This document shows, piece by piece, positions 35,313 through 42,898 of a stretch of 54,924 bases of DNA. Position 1 is the first letter of the stretch. Each line of letters begins with the position of its first letter. The position numbers and the translations under genes are program-made. The stretch comes from Verrucomicrobiales bacterium (lineage in GTDB: Bacteria; Verrucomicrobiota; Verrucomicrobiia; Verrucomicrobiales; V1-33): positions 1 to 54,924 of the forward strand of contig JAGNEJ010000025.1 in assembly GCA_018003315.1 (NCBI GenBank), written 5' to 3'. Under the pieces are notes generated by a model. The model was given only the letters and a program-made list of their open reading frames with translations, was not told where the DNA came from and did not search any database.

Positions 35313-35473
35313 ATTCCAACGCGCGTTCAAGATGAGACGCATCCGCCTGCCCATGTGTCTGCTGGCCGCGTTGCGTCCTCGTTGAGTATTGCTTGAATAC
35401 ACGCCTCGGACGCGCCTTGCCAGCAAACACCATGGCGGCGCGGCTTCATCTCATCTTGAACGCGCATTGGAAT
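35313..35473. repeat. 161-bp imperfect palindrome (MITE-like or structured RNA)
   Basis: The outer 25 bp (35313-35337 and 35449-35473) are inverted repeats with one mismatch (ATTCCAAYGCGCGTTCAAGA then TGAGA). The arms continue with scattered mismatches and one compensated indel (CCATG...TGCTGGC on both) to a central GTATT-GCTTG-AATAC hairpin at 35386-35400. The symmetry centre of the outer arms (35393) is also the centre of the inner loop, so the whole element folds as one hairpin. Confidence 0.8.
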
Positions 35474-35605
35474 AAGACATGGGTGTCCAAATTAGCCTGC
35501 AATTTTTCCTAACCCTGGCCCTGTTATAGGCCTCAGGGGCGGCTTTACGGGGCGGGATTTTGCCCTCCGTATCCCTGCTTTAACCCGGGGCTAGATAAAT
35601 TGTCT

Positions 35606-35644
35606 GGCAAATAATTGTGGCAATAATTGCGGGCAAATAATTGC
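35606..35644. repeat. Three 13-bp tandem repeats (iteron-like)
   Basis: GGCAAATAATTGT, GGCAATAATTGCG and GGCAAATAATTGC begin at 35606, 35619 and 35632, exactly 13 bp apart, sharing the core ATAATTGY. The patch is much richer in A+T than its surroundings. A tandem operator for a regulator is one reading; nothing else suggests a replication origin. Confidence 0.7.
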
Positions 35645-35693
35645 GACCATATGACGGGCATGGTGTGGACGGAGGCGAACAACCACGACTCCA

Positions 35694-35736
35694 CCTCCCC
35701 GGCGGGTGCTTTCTTCAGAAAGGCCCGCCGGGGTGG
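35694..35736 (-). terminator. Strong GC hairpin after the radical SAM/flavoprotein operon
   Basis: CCCCGGCGGG (35697-35706) pairs with CCCGCCGGGG (35724-35733); inside it CTTTCT pairs with AGAAAG over a TC loop, and the outer flanks add 2-3 more pairs past one mismatch. It lies 43 bp beyond the flavoprotein stop codon. No T-tract follows, so it may stabilise the 3' end or work with Rho. Confidence 0.6.
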
Positions 35737-35778: not shown

Positions 35779-37074
35779 CTAGGCACCGGCCGCAACCGGT
35801 TCGGCGAGGGGAGGGAGATTCGAGCCCAGGGGCGGGGGCGGCGGTGACATCTCCGCGAGCGCATTGGTGAAAGCGCTCATGTCCTTGATGACATCGCCGA
35901 CGAGACAGTCGATGAGGGCGCGGCGTTGCTCCGGAAAACGCTTGGCAAATTCGATGAAGCTGAAATCCGGATCATAGAACGCGTGAATGAGGCGGCGAAC
36001 CGATTCCACGCCGCTCATGAGCGCTCCCTCAAAGTGTCCCAATCGAGCAGCGGAAAGGTCGCCGGACTTCAATGCGTCATCAATGCTCTGCGCCGCCAAC
36101 TCGGCGGAACCGAGAGCGAGGTAGAGGCCCGAGGAGTAAATCGGATCCAGGAATGCCCGGGCGTCGCCAATCATCACCCATCCGTCGCCGCTGGTGCGGC
36201 GGTTCAGGTAGGCCATGTGCCGCGTGCCGCGCACCGGTCCGAACCGCTCGGCGTTGACCAGGCGCTCGCTCAGCGCAGCACAGCGGGAAACTTCGCGCAG
36301 GTAGGCTGCCTCCATGTCGTCGGAATCCGAAAAGACATACTCCGGATTAGCGACGAGTCCGACGCTCACCACGTCGTCCGGGAGCGGGATGTACCAGAAC
36401 CAGCCGCCGCCGCCGAGCAGAAACATCGTGGTCTCCCCGGCGTCGATTCCCGGCAGGCGTTTGCCGCCGCGGTAGTAACTCCAGACGGTGGCCTTCCGGA
36501 GTTCTGGCAGGCTGCACCGCAGGTTCAACTGCTGGCCGATAACGCAGGCCCGCCCCGAGGCATCGGCCACGACCTTTGCCCGCACTTCGGTGGGCGACCC
36601 TTTTCCGATGGCCACCCGAACGCCCACGGCCTGTTTGCCTTCAAAGATCACTTCCTGAACATTGGCCTGTTCGTGGACTTCCACACCATTCTCGCGGGCG
36701 TGGTCGAGCATCATGCAGTCGAATTTGCTGCGCTCCACCTGCCAGGTCCGGGCGCCGTCGCCCTCAATGGTTTCCGTGAAATAGAAGGGCAGCGATTCCT
36801 TCCCGGCAGGCGACACAAAGCGCACGCTGTGCTTCACCGGAAAATCGGACGCCCGCAGCTTCGGAAGCATTCCAAGGCGGTCGAGGATGCCGTAGGTGTG
36901 CGGCACCAGCGATTCGCCAATGTGATAGCGGGGATATTTTGCCTGCTCGAACACAATGCAACGGTGGCCGTTGCGCGTCAAAAACGTGGCCAGAGCGGAG
37001 CCTCCGGGACCTCCGCCGATAATGACGACGTCATAGGAGGAATGTTGCGGGGCGGTGGAGGGGGAGTCATTCAT
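35779..37074 (-). CDS. FAD-dependent oxidoreductase, flavin-halogenase-like
   Basis: A 431-residue flavoprotein of the p-hydroxybenzoate hydroxylase superfamily. It has the FAD motif GGGPGG (20-25), PRYHIGESLVP (48-58) and a WFWYIP segment at 225-230 that fits the WxWxIP motif of flavin-dependent halogenases. K81 in FPVKHSVRF lies where the catalytic Lys of CmlS/PrnA-type halogenases is expected. GDARAFLDPIYSSG is the second FAD-binding segment. Related proteins include geranylgeranyl reductases and simple hydroxylases, so halogenation is only a candidate activity. It is 25 bp downstream of the radical SAM gene, so the two are probably one operon. The Pro-rich C-terminal tail is unusual. Confidence 0.82.
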   Translation of the reverse strand: MNDSPSTAPQHSSYDVVIIGGGPGGSALATFLTRNGHRCIVFEQAKYPRYHIGESLVPHTYGILDRLGMLPKLRASDFPVKHSVRFVSPAGKESLPFYFTETIEGDGARTWQVERSKFDCMMLDHARENGVEVHEQANVQEVIFEGKQAVGVRVAIGKGSPTEVRAKVVADASGRACVIGQQLNLRCSLPELRKATVWSYYRGGKRLPGIDAGETTMFLLGGGGWFWYIPLPDDVVSVGLVANPEYVFSDSDDMEAAYLREVSRCAALSERLVNAERFGPVRGTRHMAYLNRRTSGDGWVMIGDARAFLDPIYSSGLYLALGSAELAAQSIDDALKSGDLSAARLGHFEGALMSGVESVRRLIHAFYDPDFSFIEFAKRFPEQRRALIDCLVGDVIKDMSAFTNALAEMSPPPPPLGSNLPPLAEPVAAGA

Positions 37075-37099
37075 GGTGCGGTATTCCTTGTTTATGGGT

Positions 37100-38437
37100 T
37101 TATGTGTATCGGAGAGAGTGGTATTTCGGGTCGTAGAATCGGGGCAACAGGCGGTCCACGCGCAGCAGACCGCGGCGCGTCAATTCAACGGCCTCCAGCG
37201 AGGCGGAGAGCCAACCTTCGGCGGCGAGGTCCTGCAGAGGCTGGGCAAACACGGCCAGCGGCTCCACCCCAAACCGGGCGCGCAGCGGCGCCAGGGAGAC
37301 CCTGCCGAGTTTGAGTTGCAGGATGAACTCCCGCACCAGCTGGTCCTCCAGGGAAAGCTGCAGGGCGCGGCCGACGGGAAGTTCCCCGCGCTCCACGGCG
37401 GTTTGATAGGATTCCGCGGTGACGGCGTTCTGGGCATGCACTCCGCCGAAATAGCCGAAGGCAGCCACGCCGAGTCCGAGCATGTCTGCGCCGCGCCAGA
37501 GGTATTCTTGATAGCAAAAGCGGTGGCGCTGCGGGTCCTTGACCGCGTTGTATCCGCTGATGATCGTGTAGCCTGCGCGTTCGAGTTCCTGGAAACCCTC
37601 TGCAAGCCGACGGCGCTTGGTTTCCCACGAAACCGGTGCGGCGGGACCGGTTTGCGATTTGATATCGCGGTAGGTCTGCGTGTTGTGCGGAATCTCGGTT
37701 TGATAAATGGTGATCCCGTCCGGAGCCAGGGCGATGGCGCGGCGGACCGACTCGATCCACTGTGCGTCGGTCTCGCCCAGCAGGCCGCACATGAGGTCGA
37801 GGTTCAACCAGGCGAACTTCGTCTGGCGGATCAGTTCGCAGGCCCGCAGCACGTCCCCGGCCAAGTGTACCCTTCCATTCAGTTTCAGCAGGTGGTCGTC
37901 AAAGCTTTGCACCCCCATGCTCAGGCGCGTCACGCCTGCGTCCCGCAGCGTTTCCAAAAACTCGGAACGCACCGACCGGGGCGCACACTCGAAGGTGACT
38001 TCCTCCACCGCATTCCACGCCAGGCTGCGCTGGAGCCCCTCCGCCAACGTCCGCACCTGTCTGGAACTGAGCGCGGATGGCGTGCCGCCTCCAAAATATA
38101 CGAATGCCGGGGACCGCCCCCGGATGCCTGGACACTGCGCGTAAAGCGCCAATTCCTGCACCACGCATTCTAGGTAGCGGTCCACCACGGCCGCGGGTTG
38201 TGCGATGTAGGAAAGGTAATAACAATAGTCGCACTTCTGCTGACAAAAGGGAACATGTACATACATCCCCAGCCGCTCGGCAGAGGCAGGGCGGGCCAGA
38301 GCCTCATGCAAGGCGGGCACCTGGGCGGAAGTCCATGCTGAAAACGGAGGATATGCCGCGACGAAATAGTTTCCGGCCACTGGCTCGGGGGCAAGCGCGG
38401 CATCCTCTGGCAGGGGCGGAACGGTAGGGGCAATCAC
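37100..38437 (-). CDS. HemN/HemW-like radical SAM protein
   Basis: A 445-residue radical SAM enzyme of the coproporphyrinogen-oxidase-like (HemN/HemW) superfamily. The cluster motif is PFCQQKCDYC (C65, C69, C72; CX3CX2C), followed by YFGGGTPS and later family segments (RLSMGVQSFDD; HemN-type C-terminal domain). The start is GTG 38437; no ATG fits the frame upstream of the cluster motif. The C-terminal half departs from true HemN, and the pairing with a halogenase-like flavoprotein points away from plain heme synthesis. Class C radical SAM methyltransferases (NosN-type) share this fold and act on natural products, so a modification enzyme is plausible (inference). It is divergent from the YlbF gene. 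Confidence 0.83.
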   Translation of the reverse strand: MIAPTVPPLPEDAALAPEPVAGNYFVAAYPPFSAWTSAQVPALHEALARPASAERLGMYVHVPFCQQKCDYCYYLSYIAQPAAVVDRYLECVVQELALYAQCPGIRGRSPAFVYFGGGTPSALSSRQVRTLAEGLQRSLAWNAVEEVTFECAPRSVRSEFLETLRDAGVTRLSMGVQSFDDHLLKLNGRVHLAGDVLRACELIRQTKFAWLNLDLMCGLLGETDAQWIESVRRAIALAPDGITIYQTEIPHNTQTYRDIKSQTGPAAPVSWETKRRRLAEGFQELERAGYTIISGYNAVKDPQRHRFCYQEYLWRGADMLGLGVAAFGYFGGVHAQNAVTAESYQTAVERGELPVGRALQLSLEDQLVREFILQLKLGRVSLAPLRARFGVEPLAVFAQPLQDLAAEGWLSASLEAVELTRRGLLRVDRLLPRFYDPKYHSLRYT

Positions 38438-38657: not shown

Positions 38658-39104
38658 ATGATCATCATCGGCGAAGAAAACTCTGTTCGGAAAATCGACT
38701 TGGACGAAGCCTTGCGCACGCTTTGTGCAGCCCTGCTGCAGAACGACCGTGTGCAGCAGGCGCGGGAGGTGGTGGAGACCTTTCTGGAGGACGATGAGGC
38801 GCGGGAACTTTATGCCGCGCTGACCCGGAAGTCCGAGGAACTGCACATGAAACAGCATGCCGGTGAGGATCTGACCGAGGAGGATGTCACCGATTTCAAC
38901 CGGCTGCGGGACAAGGCTTTTTCCGATGACCGGGTGCAGGCGTTTTCAGCGGCCCGCGGAGCCCTTCAGGAAATGGAGGATCGCGTGGTGGCCTATGTGG
39001 AAAAAACCCTGGAACTGGGCCGCGTGCCGGAAGAACACGAAGTCCTGCGCCAGGGCAGCGGCGGCGGCTGCTGCAGTGGCAACGGCGGCTGCGGGTGCCA
39101 CTGA
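38658..39104 (+). CDS. YlbF/YmcA family protein with Cys-rich tail
   Basis: A 148-residue mostly helical protein resembling the YlbF/YmcA (Com_YlbF) family: EALRTLCAALLQNDRVQQARE, then DDEARELYAALTRKSEEL and the second long helix. ATG 38658 is chosen because homology-like sequence begins there; the frame is open upstream but unconvincing. In Bacillus, YlbF, YmcA and YaaT form a cytoplasmic complex that affects RNase Y, competence and biofilm and has been reported to carry Fe-S clusters. The last 16 residues here are GSGGGCCSGNGGCGCH, four Cys and a His in a flexible Gly tail, which could bind a metal or cluster. No YmcA or YaaT partner is in the window. Confidence 0.75.
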   Translation: MIIIGEENSVRKIDLDEALRTLCAALLQNDRVQQAREVVETFLEDDEARELYAALTRKSEELHMKQHAGEDLTEEDVTDFNRLRDKAFSDDRVQAFSAARGALQEMEDRVVAYVEKTLELGRVPEEHEVLRQGSGGGCCSGNGGCGCH

Positions 39105-40036: not shown

Positions 40037-40714
40037 TCAGTGCCAGGTCTGCTGTTCCAGACAGTTGTCGGCTACGAATGCCGCCAGAAAATCTTCGAAA
40101 ACCGTGCTGTATTCCCCCAGTTCGCCATGATGACTGGCCCGGGCGCAGCCAATCGTCACAAAGCGGTTGGGATTTTTCGGGTGCATGACCAGGGCTCCCA
40201 CCGTGCGGATGAAATAGGTGGTGGCCAGGGTGCGTCCGCGGGTGCCCAGCGCGGCCCTTACGCGGTCATCTCCGCCGCTGGAGTCCTCCTCCAGCCGCTC
40301 GAAGCGCAGCACCGGCACGCCCAGCACCTCGGCGCGGCGCAGTTTTTCAAATTTCAACCCCTCTCCGCCGCGCACTAGATTTTCGACATCGTCCAGCGTT
40401 TTGATGCCGGGATCAGCGGCGGATTGGTTCGCGTACAGGGACACCACGTCATCCATGCCGTCCTTGGCCAGCACGTAGTGCGTTCCGTCCGAACGGGAAA
40501 TGCTAGTCCATTTTTCCTGCACCCGTTCCTCGGCCCCTCCCTCCCCTTTGCGCGGGGTGACGCGGCGGGTTTCAGGCGGCTGCACCACCAATGGTTCGTC
40601 CGAACCGGCGTCTGGTTTCGCCGACTGGCAGGAAGCCAGGCCGCACGAAATCACCCCGCCTGCCAGCAGCAGCGGCCACAGTCGGTTGGAGATTTTTTTG
40701 CCCCTTGGATTCAT
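40037..40714 (-). CDS. Lipoprotein of unknown function
   Basis: A 225-residue protein with a lipoprotein signal: basic MNPRGKKISNR, a hydrophobic core, and lipobox LASC (Cys ~29). ATG 40714 is the start nearest the signal. The mature part has no recognised domain. Visible pieces are LYANQSAADPGIKTLDDVENL and a C-terminal region (ATTYFIRTVGALVMHPKNPN, then VFEDFLAAFV). It is expected on the periplasmic side of an envelope membrane. It lies 18 bp before the lipid kinase gene and is divergent from sodA. Confidence 0.7.
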   Translation of the reverse strand: MNPRGKKISNRLWPLLLAGGVISCGLASCQSAKPDAGSDEPLVVQPPETRRVTPRKGEGGAEERVQEKWTSISRSDGTHYVLAKDGMDDVVSLYANQSAADPGIKTLDDVENLVRGGEGLKFEKLRRAEVLGVPVLRFERLEEDSSGGDDRVRAALGTRGRTLATTYFIRTVGALVMHPKNPNRFVTIGCARASHHGELGEYSTVFEDFLAAFVADNCLEQQTWH

Positions 40715-40857
40715 GGCTGGCAATCACGCCACGCCTCCGGCATTGTCAAAGCAGGTTTTGCAGGCCTTCCCGCTCCGGAATGGAACCGGACCAGCTTCCT
40801 CACGCTACGCAATTTTCAACTCGACGCCGGAAAGGACATTTCTATTTTGCTCCCGCC

Positions 40858-41604
40858 ATGAAACAAACCCCCGACCTGTCCCGACGTTCGTTTTTCGCAC
40901 TGTCCGCCGGCGCCGCTGCCGCCGCCACCCTGACCGCCCGCAGTCCGGCAGCGGACCCGCCGAAAGGGCCGTTCGCATTGGGAAAACTGCCCTATGCAGC
41001 GGATGCGCTCGAACCCTACATCGACGCCCGCACCATGGAAATCCACCACGGCAAACACCATGCCGCCTACGTCGCCAAACTCAATGAAGCCGTGGCAGAC
41101 CTGGCAACCGCACCGCCGCCGACATTGACCGGACTGATTTCCGGCATCAAAAAACTCCCTGACAAAATGCAATCCGCAGTGCGCAACAACGGCGGCGGGC
41201 ACTACAACCACGATTTGTTCTGGAAACTGATGGGCAAACCCGGTACCAAGGGTGTCGGGGGCGAGCCATCCGGCAAAATCGGCCCCGCCATCGTCAAGGC
41301 GTTCGGATCGTTTGCGGCCTTCCAGCAAAAATTTGCGGATGCCGCGGCGAAACGCTTCGGCTCCGGCTGGGCCTGGCTCCTGCAGAAAGAAGACGGCAGC
41401 CTGGCAGTGACATCGACCCCCAATCAGGACAATCCGCTGATGCAGGGCGTGGTGGCGGAGGCGGAGACGGGCAAACCGCTCCTCGGCCTCGATGTGTGGG
41501 AGCACGCCTATTATCTCAAATACCAGAATCTGAGGGCCAAGTACGTCGAAGCCTGGTGGAATGTGGTCAACTGGAGCGCCGTGGACGAATGCTTCACCGC
41601 CTGA
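40858..41604 (+). CDS. sodA: Superoxide dismutase, Mn-type signature, Tat-exported
   Basis: A 248-residue Fe/Mn superoxide dismutase (2 superoxide to O2 and H2O2). Metal ligands by alignment with E. coli SodA are H63 (IHHGKHH), H118 (HYNHDLFW), D212 and H216 (LDVWEHAYYL). The Mn-specific pair Gly114 (E. coli G77) and Gln190 (NQDNPLM; E. coli Q146) is present, so manganese is more likely than iron. ATG 40858 gives a Tat signal, SRRSFFALSAG, with Ala-rich cleavage region; most SODs of this family are cytoplasmic, so this one probably acts in the periplasm. The PQQ-propeller gene follows after 19 bp. Confidence 0.9.
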   Translation: MKQTPDLSRRSFFALSAGAAAAATLTARSPAADPPKGPFALGKLPYAADALEPYIDARTMEIHHGKHHAAYVAKLNEAVADLATAPPPTLTGLISGIKKLPDKMQSAVRNNGGGHYNHDLFWKLMGKPGTKGVGGEPSGKIGPAIVKAFGSFAAFQQKFADAAAKRFGSGWAWLLQKEDGSLAVTSTPNQDNPLMQGVVAEAETGKPLLGLDVWEHAYYLKYQNLRAKYVEAWWNVVNWSAVDECFTA

Positions 41605-41623
41605 CATTTCACCGCCTGCATCC

Positions 41624-42898
41624 ATGAACCCGTTCAGGGCTTCCGTTGTCGTGGGCCTGCTGTGCGCCGCCGCCTCCGCGCAGGACTGGCCGCAATTCCG
41701 GGGGCCGGATGGCAACGGCCACACCGAGGTCCGCGACTTGCCGCTGAAGTGGGGGAAAGGCCGCAACATCGCCTGGCAGGTGGACATCCCGGGCAAGGGC
41801 TGGTCCTCCCCGGCCTATGCGGACGGGAAACTTTATCTGACCACGGCCGTGCTGACCGATGGCGGCAGCGAGGACGAGGCCAAAGCACCACGCTCCCTGC
41901 GCGTGCTGTGCCTGGATGCCAGGGACGGGAAAACCGTGTGGAACGTGGAGGCATTTCCGCAGGACCTGGACAAGGCCCCCCGGACCATCCATTTCAAAAA
42001 CAGCCACGCCAGCCCCTCCCCCATCGTCCACGGTGGACGGTTATACGTCCATTTTGGCCATCAGGGCACAGCGTGCCTCGATCTGAATGGGAAAAAAATC
42101 TGGGAAAGCCGCGCACTTTTTTACGAACCGTTCCATGGCGGTGCCAGTTCCCCGATTGTGGTCGATGACAAACTCATCTTCAGCTGCGACGGGATCAAGG
42201 AACAGTTCGTCGCCGCATTGAAACTCGCCGATGGCGCCCTGGCGTGGAAATTCATGCGCAAAACGGATGCCAAGAGCAAGTTCGCCTTCGCCACGCCCGT
42301 GTGCATCGTCACTGGCGGGAAAAAGCAGATCATCTCCCCTGGGGCGGATGTCGTGAACGCCCTCGATCCTGACACCGGCGAGGAAATCTGGCGCTGCCGC
42401 TACGAGGGTTATTCCATCGTTCCCAAACCGGTTTTTGGAAATGGAATGGTCTATGTCTGCACCAGTTTTGAGTCTCCGGATGTGCTCGCCATCAAACCCG
42501 ACGGCAGGGGAGACGTAACCGACTCGCATGTCGTCTGGCAGGTGGACCAGAGCAAGCGTCCGCCAAAGACGTGCAGCATGCTGCTGGACGGCGATCTGCT
42601 ATACTGGGTCTCAGACAACGGCCTGGCCAGTTGTGTGGATGCAAAAACCGGTGACATCATCTGGAATGAAAGGGCGGTCAGGGATTGCTCCGCATCCCCC
42701 CTGCTGGCGGACGGGCGCATCTACATTCAGGACGAACGGGGAAAATGCATCGTGCTCAAAACCGGACGGCAGTTCGAAATCCTGGCAGAAAACGACCTGG
42801 AACTCGGCAGCGAACGCACCTTTGCCTCTTACGCCGTCACCAAGGGAACCATTTTTTTGCGCTCGGAAAAGCAGCTCTACTGCATCCGGGAACAATAG
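41624..42898 (+). CDS. PQQ-like beta-propeller repeat protein, secreted
   Basis: A 424-residue exported protein with a signal peptide to about residue 19 (CAAASAQ). It opens with DWPQFRGPDGNG, the usual first strand of PVC 'outer membrane protein assembly BamB-like / PQQ-binding-like' proteins. Repeated DxxTGxxxW motifs (LDARDGKTVWN, LDPDTGEEIWR, VDAKTGDIIWN) mark propeller blades. The catalytic Asp and Ca-binding residues of true PQQ alcohol dehydrogenases are not evident, so binding or scaffolding is more likely. It lies 19 bp downstream of sodA and is probably cotranscribed. Confidence 0.85.
   Translation: MNPFRASVVVGLLCAAASAQDWPQFRGPDGNGHTEVRDLPLKWGKGRNIAWQVDIPGKGWSSPAYADGKLYLTTAVLTDGGSEDEAKAPRSLRVLCLDARDGKTVWNVEAFPQDLDKAPRTIHFKNSHASPSPIVHGGRLYVHFGHQGTACLDLNGKKIWESRALFYEPFHGGASSPIVVDDKLIFSCDGIKEQFVAALKLADGALAWKFMRKTDAKSKFAFATPVCIVTGGKKQIISPGADVVNALDPDTGEEIWRCRYEGYSIVPKPVFGNGMVYVCTSFESPDVLAIKPDGRGDVTDSHVVWQVDQSKRPPKTCSMLLDGDLLYWVSDNGLASCVDAKTGDIIWNERAVRDCSASPLLADGRIYIQDERGKCIVLKTGRQFEILAENDLELGSERTFASYAVTKGTIFLRSEKQLYCIREQ

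Follow-up and report, generated by a model that had tools for sequence, protein, structure and literature searches.

Several described systems resemble parts of the one analysed here. The variant-type flavin-dependent halogenases are represented by CndH, PltA, Mpy16, Bmp2, ChlB4 and FasV, and PltA, Bmp2 and CmlS accept their substrates bound to a carrier. HemN, HutW/ChuW, the STM4012 family and NocN are the relevant radical SAM proteins, and E. coli UbiC and the DUF98 proteins the relevant chorismate lyases. In the marine bmp pathway of Pseudoalteromonas, which has no radical SAM enzyme, the chorismate lyase Bmp6 is combined with brominases, and Bmp5 halogenates the phenol. Planctomycetes are also known to produce halogenated 4-hydroxybenzoate-type compounds, and one source gives the genes for alichondrichlorin as unknown (PMC12078418). 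Here we describe a halogenase-type flavoprotein gene that is paired with a HemN-like radical SAM gene and, across genomes, associated with a putative chorismate lyase gene. As in the bmp pathway, a chorismate lyase would be coupled with flavin-dependent halogenation; unlike the bmp pathway, which halogenates the phenol with a different enzyme, Bmp5, the present system includes a radical SAM enzyme. The coupling of chorismate lyase and flavin halogenase thus has a precedent, whereas for a triad that adds a HemN-like radical SAM protein we found no description in the open-licence publications searched.

The window, that is, the whole stretch of 54,924 nucleotides that was analysed, is contig C53 in its entirety, part of a draft genome of 5.1 Mb. 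Both genes lie on its minus strand. The radical SAM gene (37100..38437, 445 aa, GTG start) is the upstream partner of the flavoprotein gene (35779..37074, 431 aa, ATG start), and the 25 bp between the two ORFs (37075..37099) contain an AAGGA ribosome-binding-like sequence before the flavoprotein. Gaps in relatives are similar (15-36 bp), and we infer that the two genes form one transcription unit. All features that the first-pass annotation had read from the letters are present, including the coordinates, the GTG start, the spacing, the cysteines C65/C69/C72 and the flavoprotein motifs GxGxxG, HIGESLVP, K81 and WFWYIP. It had further proposed that a strong GC hairpin ends the operon. A GC-rich hairpin with a 10-bp stem is indeed found on the minus strand 3' of the flavoprotein gene (35695..35735), with a z of -2.4 and only 3 of 200 shuffles folding equally well. 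The hairpin itself is real but is not confirmed as a terminator of the usual kind: the minus strand lacks a U tract, and the terminator scan lists no minus-strand terminator there. The highly structured region said to lie behind it did not hold up, as the folding of 35360-35660 is no better than that of shuffles (z -0.23) and an Rfam search of the region returned no family match; a structured RNA at this place was rejected. Independently of the pair, the first 400 and the last 400 bases of the window share a 90-bp exact inverted repeat, so the contig termini probably lie in a repeated element.

The association of the two genes extends well beyond this contig. The radical SAM family was delimited at E<=1e-60 and the flavoprotein family at E<=1e-85, the latter threshold being fixed after the radical SAM list had been seen and before the flavoprotein list; both were kept unchanged for the Planctomycetota. 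Among 288 Verrucomicrobiota genomes, the two families occur in an identical set of 12, even where the genes are unlinked; six of these genomes belong to one family and the remainder are spread across five other families. About one in five of the sampled Planctomycetota genomes bear the pair: the radical SAM and flavoprotein families are present in 77 and 76 of 362 genomes, respectively, 74 genomes have both, and in 39 the two genes are no more than 3 kb apart. The Fisher test for co-occurrence gives 2e-21 in Verrucomicrobiota and 9e-71 in Planctomycetota, values that are uncorrected for shared ancestry. Across all 650 genomes, the members of the pair are almost never found apart. A scan with one genome per species yielded 34 loci with a flavoprotein relative. 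The radical SAM gene is directly upstream in L005, L006, L007, L008, L009, L014, L016, L025, L027, L030 and L037 and near the flavoprotein gene in L015, L028, L029, L032 and L034, and these linked loci span Verrucomicrobia, Poribacteria, Planctomycetes and Acidobacteria. Lack of such conservation had been named in advance as grounds for rejecting the tailoring module; the pair is conserved.

A third gene accompanies the pair. In many loci, an ORF of ~180 aa lies between the two genes or adjoins the radical SAM gene, and, among the 288 Verrucomicrobiota genomes, its family profile (A1) matches exactly the 12 that have both enzymes. In contrast to UbiC and DUF98 chorismate lyases, this family has no Pfam match, and none to the UbiC/DUF98 families even at E up to 1. 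A fold model of modest confidence (pLDDT 65), built from an Acidobacterial homolog in L030, resembles most closely, among PDB entries, the DUF98 protein 2nwi (Z 13.9) and the product-bound chorismate lyase of E. coli (1g81, Z 9.6); GntR effector domains share this fold. When the family profile is aligned with E. coli UbiC, the pairwise E is 9e-5 and the probability a modest 59%. The alignment places the product-binding M and R of UbiC and its PLG motif (M34, R76 and L114-type positions) in register with residues that are invariant or nearly so in the family; the fourth product-binding residue, a glutamate, falls outside the aligned block. The genomic setting and the residue pattern favour a putative lyase over a GntR-type domain. 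In one genome (G235, L100:8810-10603, minus strand), the lyase-like domain is fused to the N-terminus of a flavoprotein of the second type described below.

Both enzyme families are split in the same way. Their trees (that of the radical SAM proteins being a quick version without bootstraps) separate a type-1 clade, which contains the window proteins, from a type-2 clade, so the duplication of the two genes was joint or parallel. The window's genome has both types. The type-1 pair is on C53, a type-2 flavoprotein (42% identity) on C1, a type-2 radical SAM protein (45% identity) on C118 and the lyase-like gene on C79 (G000:C79:45830-46357); each lies inside its contig and away from the others. 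The earlier suggestion that the substrate is made elsewhere agrees with the finding that this chorismate-lyase-like gene and a second, unlinked pair are encoded elsewhere in the genome, outside C53. Type-1 mostly accompanies type-2: the 24 fetched genomes that encode a type-1 flavoprotein (at least 60% identity) include 21 that also encode a type-2 flavoprotein and 20 that carry the lyase-like gene. Neither is present in two type-1 genomes, the small MAG G296 and G301. Several type-1 flavoproteins of Prosthecobacter-like genomes have no type-1 radical SAM partner, so pairing within type-1 is common and not strict. The "minimal tailoring module" of the first-pass annotation is therefore better described as a paralogous copy of the pair from a wider three-gene core. 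Separately, two genomes from one taxonomic order encode an extra flavin-halogenase-like paralog with the motif WWSWWIP near the type-2 flavoprotein (L107:12099-13670 and L112:10341-11933).

The observed co-occurrence, linkage, paired paralogy, folds and conserved catalytic-type residues form the basis of our interpretation. Since the pair is rarely apart and is joined by a chorismate-lyase-like third gene, we propose an undescribed pathway toward a 4-hydroxybenzoate-type compound that is probably halogenated. The best explanation is that the type-2 core forms 4-hydroxybenzoate and halogenates or radically modifies a derivative, with the window pair as a paralogous tailoring step. Judging by its fold and conserved residues, the lyase-like protein would convert chorismate into 4-hydroxybenzoate. 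Proteins encoded nearby in many genomes, among them a PaaK-like ligase and a thioesterase, may activate or modify the product or export it. The flavoprotein, to go by its residues and fold, would halogenate the electron-rich ring or its thioester via K81, using FADH2, O2 and halide. The weakest step is the last, in which the HemN-like enzyme might move a SAM-derived carbon unit onto an sp2 carbon (methylation or ring closure), a suggestion drawn solely from the known chemistry of HemN-like enzymes. For the type-1 pair, we propose a parallel extra round of tailoring in the window's genome. That this pair is one functional unit acting on one aromatic metabolite, paralogous to the pair of the core initiated by the chorismate-lyase-like protein, we hold to be an evenly balanced proposition. 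Counting against it are the modest confidence of the lyase-like model, the GntR domains of the same fold, the type-1 flavoproteins that lack a type-1 radical SAM partner, and the two type-1 genomes G296 and G301. More tentatively, a widespread and undescribed lyase-like/HemN-like/halogenase pathway of Planctomycetota, Verrucomicrobiota, Acidobacteriota and Poribacteria might produce a conserved halogenated 4-hydroxybenzoate-derived molecule with a carbon skeleton remodelled by radical chemistry, the window holding a paralogous branch. If the pair does halogenate, it would be a common source of natural organohalogens among environmental bacteria that are difficult to cultivate, and halogenation would be joined with radical SAM chemistry in a combination without report in the open-licence literature searched. 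The planctomycete halogenated 4-hydroxybenzoate-type compounds come from a phylum in which the core is common, and by this analogy they are a lead as products of the core. The pair is a testable candidate for such products, one of which is stated to have no known genes (PMC12078418).

The flavoprotein matches PF04820 (E 1e-25) and contains GGGPGG (GxGxxG, residues 20-25), HIGESLVP at 51, K81, WFWYIP (WxWxIP, 225-230) and DPIYSSG (DPxYSSG, 310-316). K81, W225, W227, I229, P230 and the DPxxSSG loop are kept in at least 97% of 59 aligned relatives, and WFWxIP is found in all 59. In a sequence search of solved structures, halogenases lead (CndH, E 8e-66, and FasV, PltA, Mpy16, ChlB4 and CmlS), and K81 is in register with a lysine of the CndH, FasV and PltA chains. 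The predicted model (pLDDT 87) likewise places halogenases at the top of the fold ranking (Z 40.1-45.6), with Z 44-46 against Bmp2, FasV, PltA, Mpy16 and ChlB4, 41.5 against CndH and 35.0 against CmlS. With the variant-type enzymes, the protein therefore has in common the fold (Z 41-46), the position of the catalytic lysine, WxWxIP and the DPxxSSG loop; it is only about 30% identical to them and forms two clades of its own. The alternative that the first-pass annotation had set against its halogenase-like reading, a geranylgeranyl reductase-type protein lacking an equivalent of K81, was rejected, because the geranylgeranyl reductase-like structure 3oz2 scores lower (Z 33.2 versus 40-46) and K81 is conserved. 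These results support a halogenase-type protein of the CndH/PltA/Bmp2 kind, for which the use of halide is predicted. However, the fold alone is insufficient to settle the reaction or to prove halogenation, as an uncharacterised "flavoprotein/dehydrogenase" (3nix, Z 43.8) ranks among the halogenases and as close as they do. Together with the monooxygenase QhpG as the second-best NCBIfam model, this speaks for a version of the same three-gene pathway in which the flavoprotein acts as a monooxygenase or a dehydrogenase and the product is a derivative of 4-hydroxybenzoate that is quinone-like or redox-active and may work with a secreted BamB/PQQ-like propeller. A gene for such a propeller often neighbours the core, is present in each of the 12 Verrucomicrobiota genomes that have the core and, in several phyla, adjoins the radical SAM gene. 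We nonetheless consider this version rather unlikely: K81 and WxWxIP are kept in nearly all relatives, the best NCBIfam model is that of CmlS (NF033113, 202.5 bits, below the curated cut-off of 900), and the propeller is unspecific, its profile also matching 31 genomes that do not have the core. It is consequently not core, and perhaps neither are the genes adjoining it; its candidacy as an exclusive fourth member was rejected. The PQQ-like protein of the window itself (41561-42898) belongs to a different subfamily and was rejected as the partner propeller.

The neighbouring genes were called with a codon-usage gene caller. Compact type-2 clusters of several phyla include a PaaK-like ligase, a 4HBT thioesterase, a small membrane protein, a GT4 glycosyltransferase and an ABC exporter, and in addition the propeller, an Fe-alcohol dehydrogenase, an aldehyde-dehydrogenase-family protein, a second AMP-binding protein and a sodium symporter. 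A large type-2 core cluster is conserved across phyla in L186, L098, L095, L097, L183, L185 and L206/L207. The aldehyde-dehydrogenase-family, AMP-binding and alcohol dehydrogenase proteins adjoining the core could be taken to build the alkyl part of a chlorinated lipid ester of 4-hydroxybenzoate similar to alichondrichlorin, with the lyase-like protein supplying the acid and the flavoprotein chlorinating it. Alichondrichlorin is reported from a planctomycete, and its biosynthetic genes are given as unknown (PMC12078418). However, genomes without the core also have the propeller that stands with these genes, so the sub-cluster may be a separate one, and we regard a lipid ester of this kind as improbable. 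Unlike the CndH/PltA/Bmp2-type halogenases, the flavoprotein is linked to a radical SAM and a chorismate-lyase-like partner. No acyl carrier protein was found among the small ORFs of the clusters, which counts against the preferred reading, given the carrier-bound substrates of PltA, Bmp2 and CmlS. A right-handed beta-helix protein (~740 aa) adjoins the radical SAM or lyase-like gene in L182, L184, L187, L196 and L201.

The radical SAM protein has both a PF04055 (E 5e-21) and a HemN_C (PF06969, E 1e-8) domain above cut-off, as expected of the HemN-like protein first proposed. It shares CxxxCxxC (C65-x3-C69-x2-C72), GGGTP, the HemN_C domain and sequence homology with HemN, HutW/ChuW, the STM4012 family and NocN, and the cluster cysteines are kept in at least 97% of 55 relatives. 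Among proteins of solved structure, E. coli HemN is nearest in sequence (E 2e-37), followed by NocN. Nevertheless, every equivalog cut-off is missed: the protein scores 199.8 bits against a cut-off of 400 for ChuW/HutW (TIGR04107), 199 against 380 for STM4012, 186.5 against 325 for HemN (TIGR00538) and 174.9 against 205.4 for HemW (TIGR00539). The protein is thus HemN-like and outside the named families, and, in contrast to HemN, HutW and STM4012, it is tied to the flavoprotein and not to heme genes. An ordinary heme enzyme (HemN, HemW or HutW) that is a chance neighbour of an unrelated flavoprotein, as the HemN_C domain, the matching HutW, STM4012, HemN and HemW models and the proximity to E. 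coli HemN could suggest, is highly improbable and was rejected, being already contradicted by the missed cut-offs, by a separate, distant homolog on C29 of the same genome and by a distribution that follows the flavoprotein genome by genome. With no heme-pathway equivalog reaching its cut-off, the tetrapyrrole-like substrate that had initially been considered next to an aromatic one finds no support.

Another radical SAM protein is found near the pair in relatives. It is B12-binding, ~655 aa long and far under every NCBIfam cut-off, and adjoins the type-1 pair or the flavoprotein (L005:11283-13265, L015:7987-9957 and L025:11313-13265, also L006, L027, L023 and L201). A search of the window's own genome, run without a positive control, gave no match, and the gene was rejected as part of the window system. 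Two further genes of the window are of note. The Fe/Mn superoxide dismutase at 40591-41604 has an internal start that yields a twin-arginine-like signal (SRRSFFALS), which suggests an exported enzyme. The YlbF/YmcA-domain protein at 38661-39104 has a tail rich in Gly and Cys (GGGCCSGNGGCGCH).
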